This document shows, in pieces, positions 4,045 to 30,775 of a stretch of 64,000 nt of DNA; positions within the stretch are counted from its first letter, which is position 1; every line of letters starts with the position of its first letter. Under the pieces are notes generated by a model, which made no database searches, had not been told where the DNA came from, and saw only the letters and a program-made list of their open reading frames with translations. A program made the translations under genes and the position numbers. The stretch comes from Clostridiaceae bacterium (GTDB lineage Bacteria > Bacillota > Clostridia > Lachnospirales > Lachnospiraceae), in NCBI GenBank assembly GCA_910574345.1, contig CAJSZV010000019.1, positions 1 to 64,000 of the forward strand, in the 5' to 3' direction.

Positions 4045-5539
4045 CAGGCTTCTGGAAATATCAAAATGTGCAGATTGGTATTATGAACCGGATTTTTCCA
4101 GTCTGCCGGAGAGGGACTTTGAGGTTGTAATTCTGGATCGTGAGATTAACAGCGATGAATTTGACTATCTGATACGATTTATGAAGGCATATTGCCTGTT
4201 TATCACGGAAAAGGTTCTCTTAAAAAAGGGCGGCAGAACACAGCAGCTTTTTGTAAGGAAAATGGGAAAACGAATTTCATCAGAAGAATTGAGAATTCTT
4301 CTGAAGGAAGAACTGCCGGATTACTTCCCGAATTCCTACGGAGAGAAATATAGCCCGGAGAATATCTCAGTGGCACAGGGGTTTAAAGGAAGGGTTTCGT
4401 GGAAGGGATTGGAGAGCGCTGATCTGGAGGGCGATTATGGAAGTGGGTTAAACCAGATTGTTTTCTGGAGAAATAATATTCCCATTGCCAAAGATCAGAG
4501 CATTGACTTCTGGCTGGAATATGAAAAGGATGATACGGTAGAGATCTCACTGGAATTGTCCATGCTTCAGTTTGCAATCGGTACGGATCCTCAGTTTACA
4601 AATGTTTGGAATTTCTCTGAGAAAGAACTGAATGACATCGTTTACATAACAAACAGAAGCGGAAAAACGGGATATCTCTTTGCTTCTCTCAAGGCAAAGG
4701 GAGAAGGGTATCTGTCGGTTATCGCCCTTCATGACCGTTACTCCAGAAGGGGAAAAGGAATCTTTTTACCTGGCGGAAAAAGGAGCGTTACGTCAAAAAG
4801 GGAAGAGATTTTTTATTATTTTGATCCAGGTAATTTAAAACCACCATTAAATGTATATTTCTCCGGTTATAAGACCCAGGAAGGATTTGAAGGGTATTAT
4901 ATGATGAGGAAAATGGGACATCCCTTCCTTTTGATTGCGGAAGCCAGACTGGAGGGCGGAAGCCTTTATATGGGGTCAGAAGAGTACGAAAACACCCTGG
5001 AGGGAATATTGCGGGAGCATATGGAAAAGCTCGGATTTCAGAATTCGGATGTGATTCTGTCGGGAATCTCCATGGGAACATTCGGAGCATTGTACTACGG
5101 CTGCAGAATTCGGCCCAACACCATATTGGTGGGGAAGCCTTTGGCCAGCATTGGTGATATGGCTGACAACGAACGGCTGAAATCTCCTGACGGCAGTCAT
5201 TCATGGCTGGATGTTCTTCATAAAGAATACGGCAGGCTGGATAAAGAGGCAGTCCGGCAGATGAACAACAGATTTTGGGATATGTTTGACCGCACGGACT
5301 GGAGCGGAACCCGGTTTGCGGCAGCATATATGATTGAGGATGAGCTGGATGGAAATGCCTATGAAAATCTTCAATTCCACTTAAAGGACGCAGGGGCAAA
5401 AATATATGGAAAAGGCCTTCATGGCCGGCACAATGATAATACGCCAGGTATTGTAAAGTGGTTTGTGAGCCAATACCGGGAGATTATCGAAAATGATTTT
5501 GACAGAACAGGAAAGAAAACAGGTAAACGGAAGCGATGA
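4001..5539 (+). CDS. asp2: Accessory Sec system protein Asp2 (alpha/beta-hydrolase-like acetyltransferase)
   Basis: A 512-residue protein. The C-terminal half has an alpha/beta-hydrolase nucleophile elbow GISMG with Ser357 and the following GALYYG helix. Acidic residues at 446-450 (EDELD) and His474/His477 (GLHGRH) are placed to complete a catalytic triad. In streptococci Asp2 O-acetylates GlcNAc on the adhesin as well as being needed for export, and the retained triad suggests the enzyme is active here. The start is a TTG at 4001 inside asp1, followed by VRVLQLG, typical of the family. The gene ends with an ATGA overlap into asp3. Confidence 0.9.
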   Translation: METVRVLQLGTEDFSRLLEISKCADWYYEPDFSSLPERDFEVVILDREINSDEFDYLIRFMKAYCLFITEKVLLKKGGRTQQLFVRKMGKRISSEELRILLKEELPDYFPNSYGEKYSPENISVAQGFKGRVSWKGLESADLEGDYGSGLNQIVFWRNNIPIAKDQSIDFWLEYEKDDTVEISLELSMLQFAIGTDPQFTNVWNFSEKELNDIVYITNRSGKTGYLFASLKAKGEGYLSVIALHDRYSRRGKGIFLPGGKRSVTSKREEIFYYFDPGNLKPPLNVYFSGYKTQEGFEGYYMMRKMGHPFLLIAEARLEGGSLYMGSEEYENTLEGILREHMEKLGFQNSDVILSGISMGTFGALYYGCRIRPNTILVGKPLASIGDMADNERLKSPDGSHSWLDVLHKEYGRLDKEAVRQMNNRFWDMFDRTDWSGTRFAAAYMIEDELDGNAYENLQFHLKDAGAKIYGKGLHGRHNDNTPGIVKWFVSQYREIIENDFDRTGKKTGKRKR

Positions 5540-5979
5540 CAGGCCAATCATGGAAGATTTACTGGAATGAATATGTAAAGAGTTCCTATTTGTATGGGAC
5601 GGAAATCTATTTCCATGCAAAGGATGACATAGAATTCAAAAATGAACTGATTCAGCCGGGGGCAGTGATAAAGCGCTGGTTTTCCAAAGTGAATTATCAG
5701 GTGATGCGTATGGAACCGGCGCTTCCCATGATAGACGGTGAAGGACGGTATCACATCAGCCTGGATGCATCTGCAGAACCAGAAGGCGGATTGCTTATGA
5801 GGCTTATTTTTTATGACCGTTATGACGGAGAAGCGGGAAGTCAGATCATACGGGACGGAAAAGGGGATTTTCAGTGCCCGTTAAAAACCTTCAGCTATGA
5901 AGTCCAGCTGATTAACGGCGGCGTCACACAGTTTCATTTTCACTCAATTACGATAACGGAAGTAACCCATGGGGAATAG
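5536..5979 (+). CDS. asp3: Accessory Sec system protein Asp3
   Basis: A 147-residue protein beginning ATGA-overlapped with asp2. It shows no enzyme motif; it has the predicted beta-rich character and position of Asp3, a small carbohydrate-binding-module-like protein that bridges Asp1 and Asp2 and contacts the adhesin. Asp3 sequences diverge strongly, so the call depends on length, position between asp2 and secA2, and beta-strand patterning such as YHISLDA and GLLMRLIFYDRYD. Its last 11 bases overlap the start of secA2. Confidence 0.85.
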   Translation: MTGQSWKIYWNEYVKSSYLYGTEIYFHAKDDIEFKNELIQPGAVIKRWFSKVNYQVMRMEPALPMIDGEGRYHISLDASAEPEGGLLMRLIFYDRYDGEAGSQIIRDGKGDFQCPLKTFSYEVQLINGGVTQFHFHSITITEVTHGE

Positions 5980-8305
5980 AAAGCTTTATCACATATTAAA
6001 AAAAGTAAAAAAAGAACAGCCGGCTATCCGAAAGTTAAGCGACGAGGCTCTGAGAAGGAAAACAGATGAGTTTCGTACATGTATTTTAAAGGGAATGTCG
6101 ACAAACAGTATTCTTCCCAAGGCTTTTGCAGTGGTGTGTGAGGCAGATCGGAGAATTCTGGGGAAGGAGCCTTATGACTGCCAGATTCTGGGAGGAATCG
6201 CACTGCATTATGGCTATCTTGCGGAGATGAATACGGGAGAGGGAAAGACGCTGACAGCTACCATGCCCCTTTATCTTAACGCATTGACGGGGAAAAGTAC
6301 CATACTGGTTACAGCCAATGATTACCTGGCGGATCGGGATGCCAAGGAGATGAGACCGGTATATGAATTTCTGGGAATGACCGTATGTTCAGGTGTGGAT
6401 ACAGGGCAGAGAGAAGGAACAAAAAACCAGGGAAAGCGCCGGATTTATGAAGCGGATATCGTTTATACCACCCATGCAATTCTGGGATTTGATTATCTGC
6501 TGAATAATCTGGTATCCAGCGCCCAGGAGCGCTTCATGAGAGAGTTCTATTATGTCATCATTGATGAGGCGGATATGGTACTGATGGATGCGGCAACCAT
6601 GCCTTTAGTAATATCCGGCGTACCTCGGGTTCAGTCCGGTCTGTACGAGCTGGCTGATTTCTTTGTGACAACACTGCAGCCTGAACGGGATTATATAGAG
6701 GAAGAGAAAAGCGTATGGCTTACGGATGCGGGAGTGGCCTATGCAGAACAGTACTTTCGAATCGAAAAATTCTACGCGGCGGAGAATTTTGAACTTAACA
6801 GACATGTGACCCTTGCTTTGAAAGCCCATATTATCATGGAACGGGATAAGGACTATGTAGTGACGGAACAGGGAGAAGTGTCGCTGTTGGATAACGGAAC
6901 AGGGAGAATTCTGACCGGCATGAAGCTGAGAGGCGGTATGCATCAGGCTATAGAAGCCAAGGAGAAACTGAAGATCACACAGGAAAACAGATCTATCGCG
7001 TCAGTAACCTATCAGAATCTGTTTCTGATGTTTCCCCATATGTCGGGGATGAGCGGTACGATCTCAGATGCCAGAAAAGAACTGTACCGGGTCTACAAAA
7101 AGAAAGTGGCTGTCATTCCGCCAAACAGGCCCCTTCAAAGAGAGGATAAGAAAGATCTGTTTTTTAAAAACGCAGGGATTCAGTATGAAGAAGCGGTTAA
7201 GGAAGTGCTGCGGCGCCATGACACAGGACAGCCTGTGCTGATTGTCACCTCAACCATCGCAGATACGGAGCTGATTTCCCAGATACTTCTGGAGAAACAG
7301 GTGGCCCACAGCGTACTCAATGCCAATAACGCATATTGGGAAGCTCAGATCATTAAGGAAGCCGGACGGATAGGAACAGTTACTGTATCTACAGGTATGG
7401 CAGGCCGGGGGACGGATATCCGCCTGGGACCTGGAGCAAGGGAGCTGGGCGGACTTGCCGTCATCGGAATCGGACGTATGGCCAACGTCCGTCTGGAGCG
7501 TCAGGCAAGAGGACGTGCAGGACGTCAGGGGGATCCCGGAAGCAGCCAGTTTTTTGTTTCCCTTGAGGATGATACGGTCTCGGCAGTGGGTGAGAAGATA
7601 CTGGAGAGGTATGTGGATAAGGATCGGCGGATTTCAAAGAGAAAACTGAAGAGGCTGATTAACGGAACACAGAAGCTTCTGGAGGAGCAGGCGGTTTCTC
7701 AGAGGAGACGATCTGTGGATTATGACAAGGTAATGAAACGTCAGAGAATGATGATGTATGAGGTGAGGAACCGACTTCTGGACGGGGGAAGTCTGGAACT
7801 GGAGACGGTAGAGCAGCTGGCCAGGGAGAGTGTCCATATGTTTTTAAAAGAACATAAAAAGCCTACTACAGGAGATGTGACCAGATATGTGCTGAACAAT
7901 GTAACTTATCATTTAAGCAATCGGTTTCTGAGTATGGGACAGGTAAAAAAGAGGGATGAGAAAAAGGTTTTAAAACGGGCTTTATTATCTTATGTAGCCA
8001 CTGTGTGGAAGAATAAAGTAAAATCATTTTCATCGGAGGATGAGTTAAAAGAATATATCCGTCTCTGCTGTCTGCGGGCTATTGATGATGCCTGGGTGGA
8101 GCAGGTGGATTATCTGCAGCAGCTGCAGTATGTGGTCAGCGGCCGGTCTACGGCACAGAGAAACCCCGTGTTTGAGTATCATGAAGAGGCTTACGAATCT
8201 TTCCTCCTTATGGAAAAAACCATTAAAAGGGATATTGTAAGAAATATCTTTTTGGGAAAAAAGGAATATGGCAAAACAGGAGAGATGCAGGTGCTATTCC
8301 CCTGA
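5969..8305 (+). CDS. secA2: Accessory preprotein translocase ATPase SecA2
   Basis: A 778-residue SecA-family motor. The Walker A sequence GEGKT lies at about residues 90-94 and the Walker B DEAD box at 199-202. The second helicase domain carries GMAGRGTDIRLG and the arginine-rich RQARGRAGRQGDPG motif. It ends at VLFP without the Cys-rich zinc tail of housekeeping SecA, so it is shorter than SecA1, as expected for SecA2. It powers export of the glycosylated serine-rich repeat protein through SecY2. The start ATG at 5969 overlaps asp3 by 11 bases. It is a full-length gene with both ATPase half-sites intact. Confidence 0.95.
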   Translation: MGNRKLYHILKKVKKEQPAIRKLSDEALRRKTDEFRTCILKGMSTNSILPKAFAVVCEADRRILGKEPYDCQILGGIALHYGYLAEMNTGEGKTLTATMPLYLNALTGKSTILVTANDYLADRDAKEMRPVYEFLGMTVCSGVDTGQREGTKNQGKRRIYEADIVYTTHAILGFDYLLNNLVSSAQERFMREFYYVIIDEADMVLMDAATMPLVISGVPRVQSGLYELADFFVTTLQPERDYIEEEKSVWLTDAGVAYAEQYFRIEKFYAAENFELNRHVTLALKAHIIMERDKDYVVTEQGEVSLLDNGTGRILTGMKLRGGMHQAIEAKEKLKITQENRSIASVTYQNLFLMFPHMSGMSGTISDARKELYRVYKKKVAVIPPNRPLQREDKKDLFFKNAGIQYEEAVKEVLRRHDTGQPVLIVTSTIADTELISQILLEKQVAHSVLNANNAYWEAQIIKEAGRIGTVTVSTGMAGRGTDIRLGPGARELGGLAVIGIGRMANVRLERQARGRAGRQGDPGSSQFFVSLEDDTVSAVGEKILERYVDKDRRISKRKLKRLINGTQKLLEEQAVSQRRRSVDYDKVMKRQRMMMYEVRNRLLDGGSLELETVEQLARESVHMFLKEHKKPTTGDVTRYVLNNVTYHLSNRFLSMGQVKKRDEKKVLKRALLSYVATVWKNKVKSFSSEDELKEYIRLCCLRAIDDAWVEQVDYLQQLQYVVSGRSTAQRNPVFEYHEEAYESFLLMEKTIKRDIVRNIFLGKKEYGKTGEMQVLFP

Positions 8306-15815: not shown

Positions 15816-15865
15816 AAGAAATCCTTTGGGTTCTCAAAAAGTGTACTTTTTGAGAGGGTATTTTA
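15816..15865 (+). repeat. Control-region repeat element A with perfect 11-bp palindrome
   Basis: This is one of a pair of 50-bp elements. TCTCAAAAAGT (15832-15842) and ACTTTTTGAGA (15845-15855) are perfect inverted arms separated by two bases. Its left flank AAGAAATCCTTTGG is repeated exactly in element B, in the same orientation. Its 16-base core, AAAAAGTGTACTTTTT (15836-15851), equals the reverse complement of the core of element B. Confidence 0.85.
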
Positions 15866-15919
15866 CTTGTGGAAAATATCCGGGAAACGGTGAAAATATT
15901 GGAAACTGACTGATATTTA

Positions 15920-15948
15920 TTGACAATTATAGATTCTTGTAGTAGAAT
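15920..15948 (+). promoter_or_regulatory. Sigma-A promoter of the capsule operon
   Basis: TTGACA (15920-15925), a 17-base spacer and TAGAAT (15943-15948) form a near-consensus promoter reading toward the capsule genes. It lies between repeat elements A and B, so transcription would start just before element B. Confidence 0.75.
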
Positions 15949-15960
15949 GACACCTAATTA

Positions 15961-16010
15961 AAGAAATCCTTTGGATTCTTAAAAAGTACACTTTTTTGAA
16001 AAATATTTTA
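15961..16010 (+). repeat. Control-region repeat element B
   Basis: The second copy of the 50-bp element lies 145 bp downstream of element A. It shares the flank AAGAAATCCTTTGG in direct orientation, but its core AAAAAGTACACTTTTT (15981-15996) is exactly the reverse complement of the element A core. It sits just downstream of the predicted transcription start. Confidence 0.85.
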
Positions 16011-16165
16011 AATCTCCATAGGCTGTTTTTCACAGGAAAGCTGCTATGGAGCATTTAAAAAGGCCAAATAACTTCAAATAATAAATAAAAATGGAAATTA
16101 ATATATCTTTGAAGCAGTGACGCAGAACACATATATTTTATGAATTTCTATGTGGATTGACAGAA

Positions 16166-16195: not shown

Positions 16196-16244
16196 CATTA
16201 TTAAAATAAATTCAAATAATTATAGATATTGAGAGGTAAGGAAG

Positions 16245-17126
16245 GTGGAAAGAAACGCTGCTGATTCGAAAGGCTTTATTGAAGATTTTATAAACAGCCG
16301 TGTAAAGGGACATGGCCTGGACAGGCGAACAGAAAAGGCTTACCGTCTGGATTTAGAGCATTTTTTTGCGTGGGCAGAACAAAGGCAGAGAGAAAACATA
16401 GTTTCCGGGGAAAAAGAAGAGCGGGAGACTAAGGACTGGGAAGACCGGATGGAGGCCTATCTGGAATACCTGAATAAGGAAAGGAAACTGAGCTTTTCAA
16501 CACTGTATCGGAAAAATAAAGTATTGGGTTATTACCTGTCTTATCTGGCAAAACAGGGAGTTATCACCAGATGCCGTTCATTAAAGCCAATAGAGACAGC
16601 GGATAAAAAGAATGGAGGGACAGATACATCTCAGGGTTTGCTGTCCAGAAAAGAGGCGGATGCGTTCTTTAAGGCCATGAACAGAGAATATGAAGGTCTG
16701 GACAGTGAATTTCGCAGACGTGTCTGTCTCAGGGATATGGTTATGATGGAACTCCTTTTTTATCACAAGATCGAGATCAGTGAACTTTTAAGGATAAAAG
16801 TGTCGGACTATGACAGGGAAACAGGAACACTTGTGATACGAAGAAAACGAGGGAAGGATTATAAGCTTCACTTGTTTTCTCAGGAGCTTCAAAAAAAGAT
16901 GGGACTTTGGCTGGATGAAAGGAAAGCGTTCCGGCGAGACGGGGAGAATTCTCAGTGGATTTTTTTGTCCAAACTTGGAAAACCATTGTCTATGGAAATG
17001 ATGATTCAGATCTTTCATAAGTATAAAAGGCTGGCGGGGATTGAAAAGAAGCTGACACCGAAGGATTTGAAGGAGAGCGGGATGAAGCAGTATGCCAGGG
17101 AACTGATGATGGAGAGGTGCAGGTGA
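16245..17126 (+). CDS. Catalytically degenerate tyrosine-recombinase-like protein
   Basis: A 293-residue protein from GTG 16245. Residues about 8-110 form a core-binding SAM-like helical domain (LDRRTEKAYRLDLEHFFAWA), followed by the beginning of a tyrosine recombinase catalytic domain. The key residues are lost. The first catalytic Arg is replaced (KIEISELL where active enzymes have a GLRxSEL-like box), the HxxR box reads KDLK, and the protein ends at MMERCR before the tyrosine nucleophile. Lys in RGKDYKLHLF remains. It should bind DNA without recombining it. As first gene behind the repeat-flanked capsule promoter it may be a regulator, which is an inference. A truncated remnant is the alternative. 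Confidence 0.75.
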   Translation: MERNAADSKGFIEDFINSRVKGHGLDRRTEKAYRLDLEHFFAWAEQRQRENIVSGEKEERETKDWEDRMEAYLEYLNKERKLSFSTLYRKNKVLGYYLSYLAKQGVITRCRSLKPIETADKKNGGTDTSQGLLSRKEADAFFKAMNREYEGLDSEFRRRVCLRDMVMMELLFYHKIEISELLRIKVSDYDRETGTLVIRRKRGKDYKLHLFSQELQKKMGLWLDERKAFRRDGENSQWIFLSKLGKPLSMEMMIQIFHKYKRLAGIEKKLTPKDLKESGMKQYARELMMERCR

Positions 17127-17194
17127 TGGACGAGAAGTTTCCTTTAAAAGAAATTTTTGATAGCCATTTTATATTTATTAAGGAGACAAATTGA
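17126..17194 (+). CDS. Possible 22-residue coupling/leader peptide
   Basis: ATG at 17126 overlaps the TGA of the recombinase-like gene (TGATG), and its own TGA (17192-17194) overlaps the ATG of the next gene. The peptide reads MDEKFPLKEIFDSHFIFIKE and then TN. The AAGGAG ribosome site of the downstream gene lies within it. It may only bridge translation between the two larger genes; it could also be chance. Confidence 0.3.
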   Translation: MDEKFPLKEIFDSHFIFIKETN

Positions 17195-17994
17195 TGAGTA
17201 AGATGGAAGATTTGAAAAGCATTGATAATATAACGGTTATTGATTTTTTGGGTATCCGATTAAATAATATGGCAGCAACAGAAATATTGGATCACGTTGA
17301 CCATTGTATTGAACGTAGAATCCCATGTCAAATTGTTGGAGTAAATGTGGATCAGGCTATCAGAGTAATTGAAGATAAATATTCACATGAGATTTTTGAC
17401 AATGCCGAAATTGTTTTTACCGATGGCAAGCCAATTGTCTGGATGTCAAAATGGCTTAAAAGGCCGATTATTGAAAAAATATCAGGGCCAGATTTAATGC
17501 TTCTGCTCTGCGAAAGAGCTGCAAAAAGAAACTATAAGATTTTTTTATTGGGGGCTGCAAAAGGTGTTGCAGCCAACGCAGCTGAAAAATTGAAAATCTT
17601 ATATCCCGGTCTGCAATGCGTGGGTACATATTCACCATCTTTTGGATTTGAAAAAGACCCTGATGAAATAGAAAAAATAGTTGCAATACTTAAAAATTCT
17701 GGTGCGGATCAGCTGTTTGTTGGCATGGGATCCCCAAAACAAGATGTTTTTATTTACGAGAATATGAATAGATATCAGATCCCTGTTTCTTATTCTATGG
17801 GAGCTGCAATTGATTTTATGGGCGGCAGTGCAAAACGAGCCCCCAAATGGATGAGTGATGTGGGGCTGGAATGGTTCCATAGAATGATGCAGGATCCGAA
17901 TCGTCTTGTGAAACGATATTTAGTGGATGACCGTAAGATATTGAGATATTACCGTGAATTTAAAAAGAAAGAAAAGGAAGCGGGGAGACTGTGA
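17194..17994 (+). CDS. WecG/TagA/CpsF-family glycosyltransferase (GT26)
   Basis: A 266-residue protein; ATG 17194 is chosen because AAGGAG lies nine bases upstream (TTG 17191 is the alternative). Family marks are VGVNVDQAIRV, FTDGKPIVWMSKWL, KISGPDLMLLLCE and VGMGSPKQDVFI. Members transfer an amino sugar such as ManNAc to undecaprenyl-PP-GlcNAc or a similar lipid-linked primer on the inner face of the membrane, making the second sugar of a wall polymer or capsule unit. The actual sugar is unknown. It is the first gene of the AT-rich block and overlaps the next gene (TGATG). Confidence 0.9.
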   Translation: MSKMEDLKSIDNITVIDFLGIRLNNMAATEILDHVDHCIERRIPCQIVGVNVDQAIRVIEDKYSHEIFDNAEIVFTDGKPIVWMSKWLKRPIIEKISGPDLMLLLCERAAKRNYKIFLLGAAKGVAANAAEKLKILYPGLQCVGTYSPSFGFEKDPDEIEKIVAILKNSGADQLFVGMGSPKQDVFIYENMNRYQIPVSYSMGAAIDFMGGSAKRAPKWMSDVGLEWFHRMMQDPNRLVKRYLVDDRKILRYYREFKKKEKEAGRL

Positions 17995-19118
17995 TGGGTC
18001 TCGATAAAAGGATAAGAATCTTAGTGATTGTAAATGCTATTTTTGGATATGACGGGATATCTAATGTGGCTGTCAATTATTATCATTATCAGAACAAATC
18101 TAAGGTGCAGATGGATCTGCTAACTATAAATGATATTCCTGATTATCTAAAAAGAGAAATAGAGGATGATGGAAACAGACATTTTGTGGTAACAGAAAGG
18201 AACAGAAACCCCATTGGTTATATAGTAAAGATAAAAGATATTGTTAGCAGAAACAAATATGACATAGTATATATTCATGGAAACAGTGCAACCATGGCAA
18301 TTGATTTATTGGGGGCAAAGCTGGGAGGTTGTAAAGTAAGAGTTGCCCATAGTCATAATACACAATGTGATCATCAAAAAATTAATAACGTATTAATGCC
18401 AGTGTTTTCTAAATTATACACAGATTGTTGTGCTTGCAGTATTGAGGCGGGACAATTTTTATTTAAAAGCAAAGAATGTTATGTGGTTAATAACGGTATA
18501 TCCCCTTCTAAATATGAGTTTTCTAATAACATCAGAGAGAGAATAAGAAAGAAATATGGTTTGGACGGAAAATTTGTCATTGGACATATTGGAAGATTTT
18601 CTTACCAAAAAAATCAGGAGTTTTTATTACCATTATTACGGGAATTATTGAATAGAGGTCAGGATGCTATGCTGTTGTTAGTTGGAAATGGAGAAACCAT
18701 CGAAAAAATAAAAGGGCTGGCATATGAATGGAATCTTGTTAAGCATGTTGTTTTTTATGGAACAACAGATCATATAAACGAAGTGCTTCAGGCCATGGAT
18801 TGTTTTGTGTTTCCATCTAGATTTGAGGGATTAGGCATTGTAGCAATAGAGGCACAGGCAGCTGGATTGAAATGTGTGATATCTGAGGAAGTTCCAAAAA
18901 CAGTTAATGTTATGAAAAATTCAAGATTTATTAGTTTGCAACAACCATTAAGTCGTTGGGCAGATTTAGTTATAGAGCAAAGGAATAGCGCGGATGAACG
19001 TCAGAATAATGTAGAACGAACGAGAGAGAGGATCAAAGAGGCAGGGTTTGATATTGAGGAGAATTGTAAAGATATGCTAAATTATTATATGAGGATATTG
19101 AAAGTAAAAAGATTATGA
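17994..19118 (+). CDS. GT4-family glycosyltransferase (EpsF-like)
   Basis: A 374-residue GT-B enzyme. The N-terminal domain starts IRILVIVNAIFGYDGISNVA, with a His-rich RVAHSHNTQCDH segment. The C-terminal donor domain begins FVIGHIGRFSYQKNQEF and ends with FPSRFEGLGIVAIEAQAAG, which holds the GT4 glutamate pair. It should add a hexose or similar sugar to the growing lipid-linked capsule repeat unit. It overlaps its neighbours at both ends (TGATG at 17992-17996, ATGA at 19115-19118). Donor and linkage are not predictable. Confidence 0.9.
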   Translation: MGLDKRIRILVIVNAIFGYDGISNVAVNYYHYQNKSKVQMDLLTINDIPDYLKREIEDDGNRHFVVTERNRNPIGYIVKIKDIVSRNKYDIVYIHGNSATMAIDLLGAKLGGCKVRVAHSHNTQCDHQKINNVLMPVFSKLYTDCCACSIEAGQFLFKSKECYVVNNGISPSKYEFSNNIRERIRKKYGLDGKFVIGHIGRFSYQKNQEFLLPLLRELLNRGQDAMLLLVGNGETIEKIKGLAYEWNLVKHVVFYGTTDHINEVLQAMDCFVFPSRFEGLGIVAIEAQAAGLKCVISEEVPKTVNVMKNSRFISLQQPLSRWADLVIEQRNSADERQNNVERTRERIKEAGFDIEENCKDMLNYYMRILKVKRL

Positions 19119-19915
19119 GACTATCAATGATAACAGTATGTTTGAATGCGGAAGCCTATATTGAAAAAACCGTGACATCTGTATTGAATCAAACAATTCC
19201 TGTATACGAATATATTTTGATAGACGGCAAATCCGATGATCAAACAAATCAGATTATTGAAAATTATCGCAATTATTTTGAGAAAAAAGGAATACGATAT
19301 ATTCATGTTTCTGAGAAAGATGCTGGAATAAGTGATGCCTTCAATAAAGGGATCAGATTGTCAACAGGTGATGTCATTGGATTAATAAATGCAAATGATG
19401 AACTGATAAGCAATACTAATGATATTTTGAATAGCTATTATGATAGTGCCACAGATGTTTGGTATGGGAATTGTAAATGGATAGATTTGGAAAATGGTAT
19501 AGAATACGAAAGGAAAGCAAGACCTGAGAGACTAAGCAGAATCAGATATGAAATGGTGTTGATACACCCTTCAACCTTTATAAATAGAGCAGCTTATGAT
19601 CATTATGGTCTTTATAACACAAATTATAAATACTGTATGGACGAAGAGTTATTGACCAGATTTTATGAACATGGGGCCTCGTTTAAATATATTGATCAAA
19701 AACTTACTATATTCAAAGCGGGAGGGATAAGTGACAAGGGAATAAAGAAGACATTAGAGGAGGGATTAAAACTTGCTTTAGACATTCCAAATTCCGCGAA
19801 ATATAAAGCATATTGTTCGTATATATATAAATATTTCAGATACAAGATAAGTTCGTGGATGAAAAGAAAAGGTGTATATAAAATAGTAAAAAGAGATTTA
19901 GAAAAAGTCATGTAA
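19115..19915 (+). CDS. GT2-family glycosyltransferase
   Basis: A 266-residue GT-A enzyme beginning LSMITVCLNAEAYIEKTV, with LIDGKSDDQT for nucleotide binding and SDAFNKGIRLSTGDVIGLINANDE in place of the usual DxD stretch (written here as the conserved loop). This form is typical of the WcaA/PGL-beta-like GT2 subfamily of polysaccharide clusters. The ATGA start overlaps the previous gene. It is probably cytosolic and membrane-associated, acting on the capsule repeat unit; the sugar specificity is unknown. Confidence 0.88.
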   Translation: MRLSMITVCLNAEAYIEKTVTSVLNQTIPVYEYILIDGKSDDQTNQIIENYRNYFEKKGIRYIHVSEKDAGISDAFNKGIRLSTGDVIGLINANDELISNTNDILNSYYDSATDVWYGNCKWIDLENGIEYERKARPERLSRIRYEMVLIHPSTFINRAAYDHYGLYNTNYKYCMDEELLTRFYEHGASFKYIDQKLTIFKAGGISDKGIKKTLEEGLKLALDIPNSAKYKAYCSYIYKYFRYKISSWMKRKGVYKIVKRDLEKVM

Positions 19916-19930
19916 AAGGAGGACTGTCAC

Positions 19931-21319
19931 TTGAGTATAACAGTATTTGGAATACTTTTACTGGCTTACATATTTTATATATTTTTGAAAAGCAATAGTA
20001 CTAAAGAAGCTTTTATAGATTTATTTCTGTTATCAATTTTCTTATATTTAAATATTACAATAGGATATGTAGTAAAGATAGAACAGCAGACTATTGCAGG
20101 TTATTTTTTGGCAATGGTTTTTGCAGCGGTAGCTGGAATTTTATGTATTAGAAAAGTAAATAAAAAAAATTTTGTAGTAACTGGGGTTTTTATAATATGC
20201 ATATTGCTGTCATTAATGCTTATCCCTTTTAGAGAGTATCGAATTGTAGATAGTGACGGGTGGGATCGTTATCTTTTTGGAGGAAATAATCTTACCACTA
20301 GCTTGATAAATGGAAATCAGATTAAGAAGCTTATTAAGGCCGTGTCATTTATCTTTGTGGTTGAAACTGTACATCAAAAAATTGATGATGATAATTGGCT
20401 GTATATCGTAAATAAGGTTCTAAAATGGACTAAGGTAGTTTTGTGTTACGGAATATTTGAATTTATTGCTGTATATGTTTTTCAGATTACAAAGCTATAT
20501 ACAATAATTTTGCAGCCTGTTTTTGGATTAAAGGAATCTACATATACTTCTTCTATGACAAGAGGTGGCGGATTTCAACTGCAGGGACTTTTTACTGAAC
20601 CGTCTTCCTATGCAACAGGATTATTTTTGACTATTTTGCTATTTATCACCCAGGCGAGGTTATATGAATCCAAAGGAATAAAGAGGAAGAGAAGTTCATG
20701 GATATGGATAGGGTTAAGTATCACTCTTATGTTGCTGTCAATGTCATTCTCTTCACTTTTATATTGTTCGGTACTGTTGGCACTTACTATAATATACATT
20801 TATTATATTAAACCAAAATACAGGGTGACTATAATATTGTACTTTTTAGTATTTGCGGCAATGGGGAGCGGAGTGGTGTTTTTTCTTGTCAATTCTCAGG
20901 CCTACTATGGAGAGAGAATTATTTCTGCATTTTATATTTTAAAGACAGCGATTAAAGACAGTGATCTGAGAGACCTATATTTCCATGTGGTTCATATAGC
21001 CAATGATGGATCATCAATATCCAGGCTAGGTTCTTCAATTGGTATTTTGAAAATGGAATTTATGCAAAATCCATTAGTAGGACTAGGGATAGGAACAGGA
21101 AACTCATACGCAGCGATGCCGAATATGCTTACAGATATGGGAATTATCGGAACGGTATATTGGTACAAAATTCTAGTTGGAAACAGAAAAAGGAATACGA
21201 TTTACGCTAATATTGGGATATTGATATTAGCAGTATGCTCATGTTTGATTGTGCCATTTGATTATCTGGGAGCAGATATAATATTACTAGCCTATATAAT
21301 AAACTTACTATTTAGATAA
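19931..21319 (+). CDS. Wzy-like capsule repeat-unit polymerase
   Basis: A 462-residue, highly hydrophobic protein with about eleven predicted membrane helices. A loop with GGGFQLQGLFTEPSSYATGL recalls the O-antigen ligase/polymerase family, in which a soluble loop between late helices carries catalytic Arg/Glu residues. Wzy joins lipid-linked repeat units outside the membrane after Wzx flips them. The start is TTG 19931, with AAAGGAGG about nine bases upstream. Wzy proteins have little sequence conservation; the call comes from topology, length and position in a Wzx-containing cluster. Confidence 0.8.
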   Translation: MSITVFGILLLAYIFYIFLKSNSTKEAFIDLFLLSIFLYLNITIGYVVKIEQQTIAGYFLAMVFAAVAGILCIRKVNKKNFVVTGVFIICILLSLMLIPFREYRIVDSDGWDRYLFGGNNLTTSLINGNQIKKLIKAVSFIFVVETVHQKIDDDNWLYIVNKVLKWTKVVLCYGIFEFIAVYVFQITKLYTIILQPVFGLKESTYTSSMTRGGGFQLQGLFTEPSSYATGLFLTILLFITQARLYESKGIKRKRSSWIWIGLSITLMLLSMSFSSLLYCSVLLALTIIYIYYIKPKYRVTIILYFLVFAAMGSGVVFFLVNSQAYYGERIISAFYILKTAIKDSDLRDLYFHVVHIANDGSSISRLGSSIGILKMEFMQNPLVGLGIGTGNSYAAMPNMLTDMGIIGTVYWYKILVGNRKRNTIYANIGILILAVCSCLIVPFDYLGADIILLAYIINLLFR

Positions 21320-21333
21320 ATATGGAGTGTTGG

Positions 21334-22551
21334 ATGATGAAATATCTGATTTTAGGTGCCGGTCCCGCTGGACTGACGGTTGCCAATAAGTTAAAGCGTG
21401 CAGGAAAGACAGATTTTCTCGTTCTTGAGAGAGAAGCGGTAGCAGGTGGTCTTTGCCGCTCCATGGATGTAGATGGGGCGCCTTTTGATATAGGTGGCGG
21501 ACATTTCCTTGACGTTAGTCGATCTGAGGTAAATAAATTTCTCTTTCAATTTATGCCGGAAGAAGAATGGGATAAGTATGATCGTGACAGCAGAATTGTT
21601 GTTAATGGCAAGATGATAAACCATCCCATAGAAGCTAATATATGGCAGATGAAAATGGAAGATCAGATAAAATATTTAAAATCGATTGCCGTTGCTGGGT
21701 GCAATCTTGGTACAGAAAAGCCACAAGACTTTGTGGCTTGGGTTTATTGGAAACTGGGTTCTGAAATAGCAGAAGACTATATGATTCCATATAATCAAAA
21801 ACTTTTCAATAAAGAATTGAATCAGTTAGGGACTTATTGGCTTGAAAAACTTCCAAATGTTAGTTTTGAAGAGACCCTACTTTCATGTCTTGAGAAAAAG
21901 GCCTATGGGACACAACCTGGTCATACTCAGTTCTATTACCCCAAAAAGTATGGTTATGGTGAACTTTGGCTGAGAATGGCTGAAGCAATTAAACCCCATA
22001 TTGAATATAATAAGTCTGTAAAGTGTATTGATTTTAAAACAAAGACTGTGACAGTAACTGATGGCAGTAAATATCAGGCGGAGGTGATCATCACTACAAT
22101 TCCATGGATGGAATTTAGTGAGATCATTGGTATGCCAGATGAAATAAAAGCCGGAATCAAAGAATTAAAATTCAGTTCTATTCAGACAGAGTATTTTCCA
22201 AATAATCTTAATACTCCTTGTCAATGGATCTATTACCCGGATCCTGCGCTTTCTTATCACAGAATTTTAGTTCGTCATAACTTTTGCCCAAACAGCAAGG
22301 GGTATTGGACAGAGACAAACAGCCAACGGATTAATATGGAAGCATCAAGTGATAATTTTAAATATATGAATCAGTATGCTTATCCGCTTAATACGATAAA
22401 GAAGCCGGAAATCATGAAGAAGCTACTTACTTGGTGTAAAAAACGAAAGGTTGTTGGCCTTGGGAGATGGGGGGAACATCAGCACTATAATTCTGATGTT
22501 ACTGTAGATTTAGCGATGAAACTTGCGGAGATCATTATAGAAGATGAATAA
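21334..22551 (+). CDS. FAD-dependent amine-oxidase/UGM-like oxidoreductase
   Basis: About 405 residues from ATG 21334, placed six bases after GGAG (ATG 21322 upstream is less well placed). The N-terminal dinucleotide-binding motif is YLILGAGPAGLTVANKL, followed by the FAD signature EREAVAGGLCRS and GAPFDIGGGHFLD. The overall pattern is that of flavoproteins related to UDP-galactopyranose mutase and protoporphyrinogen-oxidase-like enzymes. In a polysaccharide cluster it most likely modifies a nucleotide sugar, perhaps ring contraction to a furanose; that is an inference. It stands directly before a sugar-activation module and overlaps the next gene by eight bases. Confidence 0.75.
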   Translation: MMKYLILGAGPAGLTVANKLKRAGKTDFLVLEREAVAGGLCRSMDVDGAPFDIGGGHFLDVSRSEVNKFLFQFMPEEEWDKYDRDSRIVVNGKMINHPIEANIWQMKMEDQIKYLKSIAVAGCNLGTEKPQDFVAWVYWKLGSEIAEDYMIPYNQKLFNKELNQLGTYWLEKLPNVSFEETLLSCLEKKAYGTQPGHTQFYYPKKYGYGELWLRMAEAIKPHIEYNKSVKCIDFKTKTVTVTDGSKYQAEVIITTIPWMEFSEIIGMPDEIKAGIKELKFSSIQTEYFPNNLNTPCQWIYYPDPALSYHRILVRHNFCPNSKGYWTETNSQRINMEASSDNFKYMNQYAYPLNTIKKPEIMKKLLTWCKKRKVVGLGRWGEHQHYNSDVTVDLAMKLAEIIIEDE

Positions 22552-23485
22552 AGCAATTATTAAGAGAAGTATTCGAGATATATTGAATTATAGACGAAAT
22601 AAAGAGATATATGACTTTTTGAAAGCTAAATATAGTGGAAAAACAGTATTTATTACATCGGCAAGCATAGGAGATATATGTTTTTTTCTTGCAGTAATTG
22701 ATAATTATTATCAAAAATATCACGAAAAGATTGTTGTTCTCTGTGATGAGAGAAAAAAAGATATTATTGTGTCCTATGAACATAAAGGAATTATAGTAGA
22801 TTATATTAATGTGAATGATCCCTTTTTTAAAAGAATATTTTATGAATTTAATGCATCTAAAATATTTGCTGTCAAAGGGGCAGAAGATAAGATATTTAAT
22901 ACGATTCCATGGGTTCAAAATGGGTTTGATATTGAAAAATCTACACTTTCGCAATTGTCCGAAGTATTAAAGCTTGATAAAAACTATAGTTTGAAATACC
23001 CTTCAGTACGGAAAGCTAAAATAACGGTAATAGAAGAATTCACAAAAAGAAAAAATAGAATGGCAGTTGTCAATCCATACTACGCAAGTGAAGAAAAGTG
23101 TGAATGTCTGTCGATGATGACAGAGGTGATAGAATGGCTGCATATTCATGATTACGAAGTCTATTGCAATGCCATTGGAAAACAAGAAACAATGGGAAAT
23201 TGCAAACGTCTTGAATGTGGTTTAAATGAGTTATACATGATAGCGGACAATATTCCTATATTCATTTCAGTAAGATCAGGAATAGTGGATTGGCTTGTAA
23301 AAACAAGGTCACAAAAAATTGTGATCTATCCACGCTCATTGCCAAAAGAGTGGATTTCTCTTTATACAATGAAACAATGGAAGGTAGATAATATTGTGGA
23401 GATAAACTGTTGGGAGACGAATTGTGAGAAAAACATTGATCATTTACTAAAAGCAGTTGTACTTGATCAGGCAGGGAGGTTTTAA
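22544..23485 (+). CDS. Uncharacterised GT-B/heptosyltransferase-like protein
   Basis: A 313-residue soluble protein. Features seen are TVFITSASIGDICFFLAVID near the N-terminus (a G-rich loop like that of ADP-heptose-type GT9 transferases) and IFISVRSGIVDWLVKT near residue 245, resembling the donor-site region of GT9. The protein at 29846-30775 has the matching ISIRCGLTDLIA, so the two are probably distant relatives. I do not recognise a named family. A glycosyltransferase role is plausible from fold-like motifs and context only. Confidence 0.6.
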   Translation: MNKAIIKRSIRDILNYRRNKEIYDFLKAKYSGKTVFITSASIGDICFFLAVIDNYYQKYHEKIVVLCDERKKDIIVSYEHKGIIVDYINVNDPFFKRIFYEFNASKIFAVKGAEDKIFNTIPWVQNGFDIEKSTLSQLSEVLKLDKNYSLKYPSVRKAKITVIEEFTKRKNRMAVVNPYYASEEKCECLSMMTEVIEWLHIHDYEVYCNAIGKQETMGNCKRLECGLNELYMIADNIPIFISVRSGIVDWLVKTRSQKIVIYPRSLPKEWISLYTMKQWKVDNIVEINCWETNCEKNIDHLLKAVVLDQAGRF

Positions 23486-23486
23486 T

Positions 23487-24989
23487 ATGGATTGTAATTA
23501 TATCATTGTACAAGCAGGCGGGAAAGGGACACGGATGGAAGCATTAACAAGAAATAAACCAAAGGCCCTTGTTCCAGTTGATAATCTCCCTATAATTATG
23601 CATTTATTTCGCAAGTATCCAGATAAGAAATTTATTGTTATTGGTGATTATAAATATGATGTTTTGAAGAAGTATCTACGTGAGTTTGCTCAGGCAGATT
23701 ATAAAATGGTATGTGGAAGCGGTAAAAAAGGAACATGTGCTGGAATGAGAGAAGCTGTGACTCTGGTACCTGATAAAGAAAGATTTATGATTATATGGTG
23801 TGATCTAGTCTTGGCAAAAGACCATGAAATACCAGAGTCTGAACATAATATTATTGGAATTTCTAAAGATTTTCCGTGTCGGTGGAAATATGAGAATGGT
23901 AAATTTACTGAGGAAAGAAGTACTGAATTTGGAGTGGCTGGTTATTTTATTTTTACAGATAAATCTTACCTATCAGATATGCCGGAAGAAGGCGAGTTTG
24001 TGAAATGGATTCAGAGTAAAAGATATCTATTTGAAGTGCAAGGACTTTATAGAGCTCATGAATATGGCTTGTATAGTGAATGGGATAAACTTCCGAAATC
24101 AAGATGTCGGCCATTTAACAGGATAAGGATTGAAAACAATAAAATATATAAAGAACCTATCGATGATCAGGGAAAACGGCTTGCCATGAGGGAAATTGCT
24201 TGGTATAAAAAGCTGAAAAATGTTCAGTTTGAAAATATCCCTCAGATTTATGAATATGAGCCATTATGTATGGAGAAAGTTGATGGTAAAAATATATATG
24301 AGTATAAGGATATCTCTAATGATAAGAAAAAAGACATTTTAGAACAGATAATTAATTGTCTCAAACGTTTACATGATTTGGAGTGCATTCCTGCAGACAG
24401 AAATAGCTATAAAGTATCATATCTTGATAAGACATATGAAAGACTAAAAAAGGTAAGAGCGTTAGTTCCATTTGCTAATGATAAAACAGTTATGATTAAT
24501 GAAAGAGTGTGCAGAAATATCTTTTATCATCAGGAAGAGTTGGAGAAAGCAGTAATGGGATATTTCCCATCAAAATTTAAGCTTATCCACGGAGATTGTA
24601 CATTCAGTAATATAATGTTGAAACAGGACAGTATACCGATATTAATTGATCCTCGCGGCTATTTTGGAACGACAGAAATATTTGGCGATACGGCGTATGA
24701 TTGGATTAAATTGTATTACTCCATGTTTAGTAATTACGATCAATTTAATTTAAAAAATTTTAATCTCTATATCAATGAACATGATGTAAAATTGGAGATT
24801 GCATCCAATAATTGGGAATGTATGGAAGAGGAGTTTTTTAAACTGCTTGAGGGTGAAGTAACAAAAAGGCAGATGAAGCTGTTGCTGTCGATTATATGGC
24901 TAAGTCTGACTACATATGCATGGGAAGATTATGATTCCATTTGTGGAGCATTTTATAACGGACTTTATTACCTTGAGGAGGCATTGTGA
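23487..24989 (+). CDS. Nucleotidyltransferase-kinase fusion (sugar-1-phosphate NTP transferase + APH-like kinase)
   Basis: About 500 residues. ATG 23487 follows GGGAGG; the frame also has TTG 23457 inside the previous gene. Residues about 1-215 form a nucleotidyltransferase with VQAGGKGTRM and the NKPKALVPV motif. Residues about 230-500 form an aminoglycoside-phosphotransferase/choline-kinase-type kinase with the catalytic loop LIHGDCTFSNIML and the metal-binding IDPRG. Such fusions can phosphorylate a sugar (or similar small molecule) and then activate it with an NTP. The gene overlaps the SIS gene by four bases, which supports a shared pathway. The substrate is unknown; choline or another polyol is an alternative. 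Confidence 0.82.
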   Translation: MDCNYIIVQAGGKGTRMEALTRNKPKALVPVDNLPIIMHLFRKYPDKKFIVIGDYKYDVLKKYLREFAQADYKMVCGSGKKGTCAGMREAVTLVPDKERFMIIWCDLVLAKDHEIPESEHNIIGISKDFPCRWKYENGKFTEERSTEFGVAGYFIFTDKSYLSDMPEEGEFVKWIQSKRYLFEVQGLYRAHEYGLYSEWDKLPKSRCRPFNRIRIENNKIYKEPIDDQGKRLAMREIAWYKKLKNVQFENIPQIYEYEPLCMEKVDGKNIYEYKDISNDKKKDILEQIINCLKRLHDLECIPADRNSYKVSYLDKTYERLKKVRALVPFANDKTVMINERVCRNIFYHQEELEKAVMGYFPSKFKLIHGDCTFSNIMLKQDSIPILIDPRGYFGTTEIFGDTAYDWIKLYYSMFSNYDQFNLKNFNLYINEHDVKLEIASNNWECMEEEFFKLLEGEVTKRQMKLLLSIIWLSLTTYAWEDYDSICGAFYNGLYYLEEAL

Positions 24990-25588
24990 ATATGACAACC
25001 TATGAGAAGTACTTTAAATATGATTCCAAGATTATTGAAGATGCACTTAAATCTATCAATTTGAAAGAGATGGACAAACTTATAGATGCATGTGAAGCAA
25101 CATTGAGATCAGGACACAAGATTATCGCATCTGGGTTAGGTAAGAATGTGCCGATTTGCGATAAATTTGTAGGGACTATGTTGTCATTAGGACTTAACGC
25201 GAATTTTCTACATACCAATACGGCTGTACACGGTGATATGGGTATGATCAAATCGGGGGATTTTGTCATCATTCTGACTAAGAGCGGGGCAACTGCTGAA
25301 TCCGTATATTTAGTAGAACTGTTAAAAAAAAGGGAAGGGGTACAGTTATGGCTCATTAGTTTTAAAGAACATAGTATTCTCGCGGATTTAGTGGATAATA
25401 AGCTCATTATTAAATTAGAACATGAGGGGGACTTGTGGGATGTTGTTCCAAATCATTCTACCACATTAAATCTTATTGTACTGCAGAAGGTCGCTATTGA
25501 ACTGTCAAAACGGATGGATCTGGATTTGATTAAGGATTTTAAGCCTAATCATCCAGGTGGAGCTATAGGGGAGTCTTTAAAAGGATGA
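24986..25588 (+). CDS. SIS-domain sugar-phosphate isomerase, arabinose-5-phosphate isomerase-like
   Basis: A 200-residue single SIS domain without CBS domains. Marks are SGLGKNVPICDKFVGTM, FLHTNTAVHGDMGMI, TKSGATAESVYLVELL and the C-terminal NHPGGAIG, which is close to the NHPGGALG motif of KpsF/GutQ/KdsD isomerases. These interconvert ribulose 5-phosphate and arabinose 5-phosphate. No Kdo synthesis genes are near, so the product probably enters the neighbouring activation route. It begins at GTG 24986 or ATG 24992 and overlaps both neighbours (ATGA at 25585). Confidence 0.8.
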   Translation: MNMTTYEKYFKYDSKIIEDALKSINLKEMDKLIDACEATLRSGHKIIASGLGKNVPICDKFVGTMLSLGLNANFLHTNTAVHGDMGMIKSGDFVIILTKSGATAESVYLVELLKKREGVQLWLISFKEHSILADLVDNKLIIKLEHEGDLWDVVPNHSTTLNLIVLQKVAIELSKRMDLDLIKDFKPNHPGGAIGESLKG

Positions 25589-25959
25589 ATGAGTTGGTAT
25601 TATCAACGTTAGGACATACATGGATTCTTGATCTGGATGGGACTATTGTAAAGCATAATGGATATAAAAAATATGGGGTCGACAGCTTTTTAGATGGTGC
25701 AAAAGAATTTTTAGAAAGCATTCCTAAAAAAGATATGATTATATTTTTAACATCAAGATCAAAAAGCAATAAAAAAATGACAGAGATATTTTTAAGTGAA
25801 AATAATGTGAGATATGATTACATTATCTATGGGGTTCCATATGGTGAGAGAATAGTTATAAACGATAACAAGCCAAGTGGATTAAAAATGGGTTTCAATG
25901 TAACTGGGGACAGAGATACATTATTTCTTCCCCACATAATAGAAAATCCAAAATTGTAA
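25585..25959 (+). CDS. HAD-superfamily phosphatase (BcbF-like)
   Basis: A 124-residue, capless HAD domain. Motif I is WILDLDGTIV with the nucleophile and acid/base aspartates, motif II is IFLTSRS, and the C-terminal acidic motif is VINDNKP. Small HAD proteins of this kind occur in capsule clusters, next to nucleotidyltransferases. Here it may remove one phosphate from a sugar bisphosphate made by the kinase domain of 23487-24989, as GmhB does in heptose activation. It is translationally coupled to the SIS gene. Confidence 0.78.
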   Translation: MNELVLSTLGHTWILDLDGTIVKHNGYKKYGVDSFLDGAKEFLESIPKKDMIIFLTSRSKSNKKMTEIFLSENNVRYDYIIYGVPYGERIVINDNKPSGLKMGFNVTGDRDTLFLPHIIENPKL

Positions 25960-26007
25960 TTTTAAATGTTAGTTTTTTATTAAGAAATTATATTGGTGAA
26001 GAATTTT

Positions 26008-27186
26008 ATGAAGAAAATTATGTTTATAGGAGACAAAATTTACCCGTTGGATAGCGGAGATGCTTTATACAATTATGGTTTAGTAAAAGGAATAGAAAAA
26101 TATTTTGATATAACATCTTTTGCATTTATCGATCCCAAGTATATTGCAGAGAGAGATAATTTAGATAATAAAAATATAAAGTTATATCCCAGCTATGAAA
26201 ATTGTGGTATTAGGGCGAATATGATGTCGCGATTAGGCCATGGACTTCCGATAAATCAAGAAATGATTAATGATATTTTTAGCTTACTGGATACGAAAGA
26301 ATATAAAGTTGTCATAATAAGCCACATTACAATGATCCAATTTGCGAGAGTCCTAAAAAAGAAATATACAAATATAGAATTTATATACGTTTCTCATAAT
26401 GTAGAAATAGTAAATTTCAGGGAAGAACGGGCACAGTTAATAAAAAATAAAAAGTTTAGGTTGTTGTATAAGCTTTTAACCTTAGTTAAAGAAAAAAATG
26501 TAAAAAGAGATGAAAAGTTTCTGTTATCAGAGTTTTGTCATAGCTTTACTATATCGATGAGTGATTATGAAATACAGAGACATATTTACAAAAGTATAGT
26601 GAAACCATGCTATTGTAAGCCGCTTATTGAGTTTCCACATGTTAAAAATGAAGAATCGCTAAAGAAATTTAACAAAAAAATTTTGCTGGCTGGAAGTATG
26701 GGTTGGTTTCCTAATATTGAAGGTGCAGAATGGTTTGTGAATCATGTATTCGAGCAATTAGCAAATACAGGTTATATACTTTATCTTGTTGGAAATAGAC
26801 CAGATAAAAAGATATTTAATCTGCAGAGAAGATACCCTAAAAATATTGTTGTTACTGGACGGGTAGAATCAATGGACGAGTATTTTGAAAAATGTGACAT
26901 TAGCATTATTCCATTGTTTTCAGGAACAGGAGCAAAGATAAAGGTACTGGAATCTATAGCGAGAGGGATTCCGACGATTGCGACATCATTCGCGGTTAAA
27001 GATTATAATTTAAAAGAAGAGGTTATAGTGGCGGACTCAGCTGAGGATTTTTATATTTCCATTAATCAAATCAAAGAGAATTATGGTAGAAGGCTGTCAT
27101 TATATAGAAATATGCAAATTTATTATTCTAACTATATGGTGTTGAGTCAGGAGATAAAATCCTTGTTAGATGAACTGGTGAAATAG
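26008..27186 (+). CDS. GT4-family glycosyltransferase
   Basis: About 392 residues from ATG 26008, six bases after GGTGAAG. It is a GT-B protein: N-terminal KKIMFIGDKIYPLDSGDALY and IYVSHNVEIVNFREE; the C-terminal donor domain has LLAGSMGWFPNIEGAEWFV, GRVESMDEYFEKCD and IPLFSGTGAKIKVLESIARG, in which the GT4 donor-site glutamate lies. It is most similar in pattern to TIGR-type capsule transferases of the RfaB/GT4 group. It probably extends the capsule repeat unit; specificity is unknown. Confidence 0.87.
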   Translation: MKKIMFIGDKIYPLDSGDALYNYGLVKGIEKYFDITSFAFIDPKYIAERDNLDNKNIKLYPSYENCGIRANMMSRLGHGLPINQEMINDIFSLLDTKEYKVVIISHITMIQFARVLKKKYTNIEFIYVSHNVEIVNFREERAQLIKNKKFRLLYKLLTLVKEKNVKRDEKFLLSEFCHSFTISMSDYEIQRHIYKSIVKPCYCKPLIEFPHVKNEESLKKFNKKILLAGSMGWFPNIEGAEWFVNHVFEQLANTGYILYLVGNRPDKKIFNLQRRYPKNIVVTGRVESMDEYFEKCDISIIPLFSGTGAKIKVLESIARGIPTIATSFAVKDYNLKEEVIVADSAEDFYISINQIKENYGRRLSLYRNMQIYYSNYMVLSQEIKSLLDELVK

Positions 27187-27196
27187 GTAAAATCAG

Positions 27197-28270: not shown

Positions 28271-28322
28271 AAATCAATGATATTCTGTACCATATTGATT
28301 TAATAGAGGGGATTTTGATTAA

Positions 28323-29849: not shown

Positions 29850-30775
29850 TCAAAGACATAGGAAAATGGGTAATGGGATGGCTGTTGTCATTGAAAATCA
29901 ATAAAAAAAGAGAGGAAGTATATTATATTATATGGGGACATATAGGAGAAGCGGTTTACGGACTATCATTGTTGCCGGAATTAAAACAAATAAAAGAAAA
30001 ACGGATTAATATTATAACTAATGAAGCGTATTCAGAGATAGCAGATTTATATAAAAACTGTTATGAGAATATTACTGTTTTGTCAAAAAGAAGGTTGGGA
30101 ATGCTTCTCTTTTATTCTAAATCTAAATTTTCATTTCATAAAAATTATATTGGTAATAAATGGGAGTGGGAAGATTATAAGTATTATTCAGGGATTCCCA
30201 CAGATGTTTATGTGGAGGGTCTGATTTATAAAATTAAGGATCTAAGAATTCCTTATAATACAAAACATAGTAAGATTACAAATCCGCGTTCTGAGTCAGA
30301 GAGAGATTTTATCCGCATTATAAATGATCTGAAGGTGCAAAAAAATAAATCTGTTTTATTGATCCCATATGCACAGAGCGCAAAAGTGTTTGATGTTTCT
30401 TTATGGGAATTAATCGGTAAAAAGTTAAATAATTGGGGATATAAGGTATATACAAATGTTAAAGATGAAACAGAACCGGCAATAAATGGAACGATTCCGG
30501 CAGTATTGCCTTTACGATATGTAATTACATTTATCGAATATGCCGGCTCAGCAATATCTATAAGATGTGGTCTGACAGATCTGATAGCGATATCTGATTG
30601 TGATGTGGAAGTTCTATATAAAATTGAAGACGAAAATGATATATATTTTTCAGAGGTTACGTCATTAAAATTTGGCAAGGAAAACTCAATGTATAAAAAT
30701 AGATGGTTTATAAAAAATGAAGGTGATCAAAGCAGATTCATTGATCATTTGGAAAAAAAATATATAAATTTGTAA
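29846..30775 (+). CDS. Uncharacterised GT9-like protein
   Basis: A 309-residue soluble protein, ATGA-overlapped with the flippase gene. It has YYIIWGHIGEAVYGLSLLPEL near the N-terminus, SVLLIPYAQSAKVFDVSLWELIGKKL at the start of a second Rossmann half (read as motifs, not one exact match), and AISIRCGLTDLIA, similar to GT9 heptosyltransferases. It resembles the 22544-23485 protein in architecture. It may be a glycosyltransferase; no family name can be given with confidence. Confidence 0.6.
   Translation: MIKDIGKWVMGWLLSLKINKKREEVYYIIWGHIGEAVYGLSLLPELKQIKEKRINIITNEAYSEIADLYKNCYENITVLSKRRLGMLLFYSKSKFSFHKNYIGNKWEWEDYKYYSGIPTDVYVEGLIYKIKDLRIPYNTKHSKITNPRSESERDFIRIINDLKVQKNKSVLLIPYAQSAKVFDVSLWELIGKKLNNWGYKVYTNVKDETEPAINGTIPAVLPLRYVITFIEYAGSAISIRCGLTDLIAISDCDVEVLYKIEDENDIYFSEVTSLKFGKENSMYKNRWFIKNEGDQSRFIDHLEKKYINL

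Follow-up and report, generated by a model that had tools for sequence, protein, structure and literature searches.

A putative phase-variable promoter of a capsule-type operon in Lachnospiraceae, flanked by sites that resemble those of small serine recombinases

Two inverted elements on either side of a capsule-type promoter are very probably the crossover sites of a phase-variable promoter, flipped by a small serine recombinase whose gene lies at another chromosomal position. The enzyme would bind the quasi-palindromic sites, presumably cut at their 2-bp centres and invert the segment of about 145 bp between them. In the ON orientation, which is the state of the window (the whole stretch of 64,000 nucleotides analysed here), the promoter would drive the gene of a catalytically dead Xer-like protein and the capsule-type operon. 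In the OFF orientation it would point at the upstream gene; site A would then have a palindromic flank, and the hairpin formed by it may terminate antisense transcription. The features are collected in Table 1.

Table 1. Positions of the features discussed (numbers without a prefix refer to the window)
Feature	Position	Strand	Remark
Site A core AAAAAGTGTACTTTTT	15836-15851	.	read directly
Site B core AAAAAGTACACTTTTT	15981-15996	.	read directly
Site A, 20-bp palindrome TCAAAAAGT-GT-ACTTTTTGA	15834-15853, centre 15843-15844	.	proposed crossover site
Site B, TTAAAAAGT-AC-ACTTTTTTG	15979-15998, centre 15988-15989	.	inverted partner of A
Proposed invertible segment between the centres	15844-15988	.	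promoter toward operon (ON), by promoter score and homology
Promoter TTGACA-N17-TAGAAT inside the segment	15920-15948	+	read directly
Direct repeat of 50 nt around site A (copy 1)	15816-15865	+	outer half-hairpin AAGAAATCCTTTGGGTTCTC
Direct repeat of 50 nt around site B (copy 2)	15961-16010	+	after a flip would base-pair with copy 1 by its left half
Leader motif, copy 1 AAATAACTTCAAATAAT	16066-16082	+	
Leader motif, copy 2 AAATAAATTCAAATAAT	16204-16220	+	just 5' of the start codon region
Xer-like protein, 293 aa, first operon gene	16245-17126	+	catalytically dead by residues; putative regulator
Surface-polysaccharide genes: WecG/TagA/CpsF transferase, glycosyltransferases, Polysacc_synt flippase-type protein, epimerase, nucleotidyltransferase	17191-33581	+	
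FMN riboswitch RF00050, 116.9 bits	52468-52584		
C10 site pair	L005 7747/7874		
C13 site pair	L006 6640/6777, again 7140/7277		
C8 site pair	L008 3045/3182		directly behind a small serine recombinase gene
C2 site pair	L080 3822/3967		directly behind a small serine recombinase gene
C1 site pair	L007 4749/4876		
C2 invertase gene	C2:318172-318780		
TnpB-like first genes behind two putative invertible promoters	L005 7934-9247 (C10), L007 4946-6265 (C1)		
ON loci	window, L136, L139, L141, L142		
OFF loci	L137, L138, L140, L143, L144		
CGCAGATT-N5-AATCTGCG sites	C1:78962, C1:104822, C1:105501, C8:13710, C10:44765, C11:97048, C16:41463		loci L012, L014-L017, L019

The sequence-only reading had described two 16-bp cores as exact inverted copies, and direct reading bore this out: the cores are exact reverse complements and differ only in the central dinucleotide, GT in site A and AC in site B. 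The near-consensus promoter was present between them as described, and the direct-repeat flanks were larger than claimed (50 nt, 80% identity). The inverted segment had been given as 15852-15980; the segment as such held, and its bounds would move to the site centres, 145 bp apart, if cleavage occurs there. Both sites, 9-2-9 palindromes with a GT/AC centre, resemble those of small serine recombinases. Compared with the 20-position site pattern, site A had 0 and site B 3 mismatches, the centre and core of B being intact. A promoter flanked by inverted putative recombination sites, the arrangement of an inverton, is found in the window.

The pair was then compared with chance expectation. Exact core matches occurred at 0.0025 per simulated 64-kb window, none of 400 windows contained two, and the 511-bp intergenic region, simulated 20,000 times, never contained one. 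Two such cores in this gap are beyond chance. When 2 mismatches were tolerated, sites A and B were still the only ones in the window, against a shuffled mean of 0.60; because two matches were reached in 13 of 100 shuffles at this tolerance, the exactness and the pairing bear the weight. Genome-wide, single sites were near background (14 against 9 for the reversed pattern with up to 1 mismatch; 20 against 18 for a longer pattern with up to 3), and it is the pairs that are the distinctive signal. In the window, the pair scan picked up A/B and, with 6 mismatches, a weak AT-rich pair at 30632/30755; the reversed window had none. Over all loci of that scan, the reversed control gave 2 pairs.

Five further site pairs were traced from the window core in the same genome, on the contigs C1, C2, C8, C10 and C13. 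Their central dinucleotides are reverse complementary in every pair, which was a requirement of the pair scan; the C10 and C13 pairs had shown it beforehand. Several of these elements, including that of C2, have a self-complementary AT centre, which by itself would not fix the orientation of a site. The window segment aligned with the C2 element at 73% in the opposite orientation, and the C2 element has the layout expected of a flipped window, with site A inside a long palindrome and the same AATCCTTTGGATT flank. The C13 element stands before two c-di-GMP-I riboswitches and an LPXTG protein, and those of C10 and C1 precede TnpB-like genes. Behind the two invertase-adjacent elements, similar genes were observed (L080 4009-4518 and L008 3177-3722), the first with a weak AP2 match under the cut-off.

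The linkage of such pairs to small serine recombinases was examined across genomes. The window's genome has three such genes, on C2, C8 and C7, and the invertases carry the Resolvase domain PF00239, the catalytic domain of Hin/Gin-type invertases. A search at E ≤ 1e-30 placed related invertases in 16 of the 26 genomes of the genus; at E ≤ 1e-40, they were present in 84 of 299 genomes of the family, which represent 298 genera. For 57 invertase loci (28 taken from the genus list, the other 29 added from the longer family list), an inverted GTNNAC pair with up to 6 of 20 mismatches was found within 420 nt downstream of the gene in 20, upstream in none, and in none of the reversed controls. The downstream pair was absent from the other 37; at least 250 nt of downstream sequence was available for 52 of the 57 loci and less than 250 nt for 5. 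The third gene of the window's genome (C7, L112) gave no site pair in either invertase-locus scan. With a stricter consensus and wider spacing over the whole locus, 12 of the 57 had a pair and the reversed control had none. Three of these 12 pairs, those of L166, L167 and L172, are spaced 294-325 bp apart and two of the three are AT-rich; they probably arose by chance or reflect a different pairing. In the 26 genus genomes, the paired-site pattern occurred 12 times in 7 genomes, counting the C13 and G005 elements twice each and leaving out the window's own pair by its gap limit; the reversed pattern occurred in none. All 7 genomes carry an invertase, as 16 of the 26 do. Matching pairs are found beside cognate invertases; the window pair itself does not lie beside one.

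The spacings behind the invertases were 116, 125-127, 135-139, 145-146, 155, 166 and 179 bp. They are helically phased, with a coherence of 0.73 at 10.5 bp for 19 spacings, which was equalled by 2 of 100,000 uniform draws; the twin loci L166/L167 were counted as one, and periods of 10 to 10.7 performed about equally. A second set, which overlaps the first in part and comes largely from dispersed elements, comprised ten distinct spacings and gave P = 0.014.

The best candidate enzyme for the window would be the C2 invertase acting in trans, with the chances somewhat in its favour, because its own element has the same 145-bp spacing, the TCAAAA arms and the AATCCTTTGGATT flank. Against it stands a mismatch, as the C2 element has an AT centre and the window a GT centre. 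The sites of Hin and Gin consist of two arms around a 2-bp centre; the sites here are built alike, the Resolvase domain is shared, and two solved 'DNA-invertase' chains, presumably Gin, matched at 9e-14. In contrast to these systems, the segments here are about 115-180 bp long and the best solved match of the C2 invertase is another enzyme, 2r0q (1e-27), which was deposited as Tn552 DNA-invertase bin3 and which we take to be Sin. A chain named Sin (Staphylococcus) matched at 5.9e-21. Sin is a resolvase, whereas the enzymes here are linked to inverted site pairs.

Comparing the orientation in related genomes had been suggested as a check, and homologous loci were found both ways. Of ten loci with the same regulator, the window and nine others (regulator identity 55-69%) whose records bear the names Hungatella sp., Lachnospiraceae and, in one case, uncultured Bacilli, five were ON and five OFF by alignment to the L141 segment. 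The ON call of the window is the weakest of the ten (homology 33 against 21, promoter scores 11.5 against 10), and C13, whose two possible orientations relative to its gene scored nearly alike (homology 31 against 34, promoter 8.5 against 9), was excluded from the tally. L139, L140 and L144 end with the contig inside or near the segment, and the full pair is absent from those sequences. L138 and L141 are opposite in orientation and belong to the same assembly. Junctions of both orientations were observed in three assemblies, at C13 of the window's genome, at G005:C1 and at the dead-Xer locus L141, in each case side by side with a gap of N between them. These assemblies could in part be mis-assembled; the novel junctions nonetheless fall in the site core, and at C13 the exchanged flanks, compared by eye, put the crossover inside the shared core. 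The homologous loci and the junctions support the reading of the elements as inversion sites, and by extension the window's own copy would also flip.

The window assembly contains the segment in a single orientation, and site B is further from the pattern than A, both as expected of a once-invertible element that was locked ON by the decay of site B. This is unlikely, and it overlaps with the promoter inversion proposed here, so that the two do not exclude each other. The centre and core of B are intact, and the sites adjacent to the C8 invertase, scored by that consensus, came out lower (18 against 22).

The sequence-only reading had implied the neighbouring tyrosine-recombinase-like protein as the agent. 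The protein matched Phage_integrase (PF00589) at 2e-14, and the Xer models scored far under their cut-offs. Aligned with the solved XerA, the box-I Arg is replaced by Glu and H-x-L-R-H by K-D-L-K-E; the alignment stops at residue 277 of 293, where XerA continues for 50 residues. The catalytic Arg, the His-x-x-Arg and the Tyr were absent from all 25 distinct proteins of the family (29 rows minus the duplicates L010, L145 and L147 and minus L150, which was in a wrong reading frame). In these 25, the box-I Arg is replaced by E, Q or D, and box II reads P-K/R-D-L-K and is followed by 15-28 residues. For comparison, about 32 residues separate the box-II Arg of XerD from its Tyr. The neighbour is rejected as the inverting enzyme for want of these residues and the nucleophile, and such sites adjoin serine invertases, so this part of the earlier reading is not supported. 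A DNA-binding regulator is more likely than a recombinase, because the family is conserved without the nucleophile.

The genome of the window has nine further copies of the dead Xer with 51-56% identity. At E ≤ 1e-40 the protein was present in 3 of 26 genus genomes and in 1 of 299 family genomes, the window's own, and would therefore be confined to a narrow clade, yet named records beyond the 299-genome list carry it. The one or two ORFs examined 3' of the gene matched glycan or sugar families at all 18 further loci, nine in the window's genome and the nine named ones; the families were glycosyltransferases, UDP-sugar dehydrogenase, GHMP kinase, hexapeptide transferase, pyruvyl transferase, LicD and similar. 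In the window, gene order suggests that the surface-polysaccharide genes form one operon, with its 3' end where the table places it. In the leaders of the window and of L136-L144, the motif TAACTTCAAATAAT or a variant was seen by eye, often twice, before the start codon of the dead-Xer gene, and is a possible binding site for the regulator.

A flip by a tyrosine recombinase, be it the neighbour or an enzyme encoded at another locus of the genome, could draw on the PF00589 match, on an intact-looking tyrosine recombinase gene that adjoins one paralogue (L085 3735-4916, C1:77734-78915) and on the Clostridia inverton group 139, which is tied to a tyrosine-type recombinase group in the extract of PMC11892184. 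It is nevertheless highly improbable. Besides the lost residues of the neighbour and the site pairs behind serine invertases, the paired sites of several loci agree, by eye, only in the centre and one arm, as a 2-bp overlap permits, and the sites of the genome that look tyrosine-type are different. These have the form CGCAGATT-N5-AATCTGCG and occurred 7 times in the window's genome and not at all in the reversed control. Each precedes a dead-Xer gene, one of them a truncated extra copy. Inverted partners with the same locus-specific spacer were found 326-396 bp away at four loci and, by eye, also at L012. This set looks like tyrosine-recombinase invertons, and the L085 enzyme, which adjoins one such site and a dead-Xer gene, is a candidate for acting on it. 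At one such element, L092 (about 5400-6700, C1:104400-105700), a single upstream flank was seen by eye to be joined to both segment ends across N, as if the element were present in both orientations in the sample. Upstream of three dead-Xer loci of the genome (L011, L013, L018), neither site type was observed.

The elements had also been read as two operators for looping. The dead Xer-like protein or another dimer would then bind the two palindromes and loop the promoter, to repress or tune it without recombination. The conserved, catalytically dead family of the neighbour, the direct-repeat flanks and the helical phasing, which also suits looping, would fit. This is very unlikely, since the same pairs occur at loci without an Xer-like neighbour (C1, C2, C8, C10, C13 and invertases of other genera), 9 of the 10 dead-Xer loci in the window's genome have no such pair, and segments were found in both orientations. 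Looping operators are not needed, yet looping between the sites would belong to synapsis in an inversion by a serine recombinase.

In the window, site A would fold at -31.6 kcal/mol after a flip, and site B at -8.7 in the present ON orientation. In 8 of 10 loci, the hairpin of A when OFF was stronger than that of B when ON. Because L136 and L005 go the other way, element A as a conditional terminator is only a tendency. The former remark that element A could act as a hairpin gains some support, the strong hairpin being predicted in the flipped state.

In Bacteroides fragilis, Mpi is a master DNA invertase of capsule promoters, and the first gene of Bacteroides capsule operons is UpxY. The system proposed here is similar in that a small serine recombinase would invert several dispersed surface-polysaccharide promoters in trans. 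It differs in the phylum, the site and the first operon gene, a dead Xer-like one, and the three invertases scored 46.6, 45.4 and 40.7 bits, far under the NCBIfam cut-off of 272 (NF009949). Inversions in Clostridia, including the RecV switches of C. difficile, are published (PMC11892184, PMC5903667), and these too are invertible, often intergenic segments; the extracts of both papers describe tyrosine-type recombinases or RecV and contain nothing on the site or the capsule layout described here. A capsule promoter of M. gnavus was not bimodal according to the extract of PMC13121745, which counts against capsule switching in one relative. The literature search, which covered papers without their supplementary files, gave no description of this combination of site, invertase and capsule, in agreement with the earlier statement that no such layout was described in Lachnospiraceae.

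The TnpB-like genes behind the C10 and C1 elements offer a parallel to the dead Xer. The L007 gene scores under the NCBIfam cut-off. The L005 protein has a Lys aligned to the near-C-terminal Asp of Cas12f, which we take to be a catalytic residue, and L007 is alike by eye. As judged from this alignment, both are probably nuclease-dead and are reminiscent of the TldR regulators. Further genes of C10 matched cytidylyltransferase-like, aldolase and FGGY-kinase families, and the large gene beside the TnpB-like gene had no Pfam match, as its C1 counterpart. That C10 and C1 are glycan loci is a guess.

We tentatively consider a Lachnospiraceae-wide serine-invertase regulon, a speculative extension, in which the flipped promoters would feed genes of mobile-element enzymes that have lost their activity, namely dead Xer at capsule-type loci and nuclease-dead TnpB-like proteins elsewhere; these proteins may then act in trans as second-tier regulators choosing the surface polysaccharide. 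Our results give a concrete proposal of enzyme and site for surface phase variation in Lachnospiraceae. They also give a site rule, AAGTGTACTT-type inverted pairs that are helically phased and often right behind the invertase, with which ON and OFF states could be read from existing metagenomes. Finally, they draw attention to phase-variable promoters whose first gene encodes a recombinase-like or TnpB-like protein that is catalytically dead.
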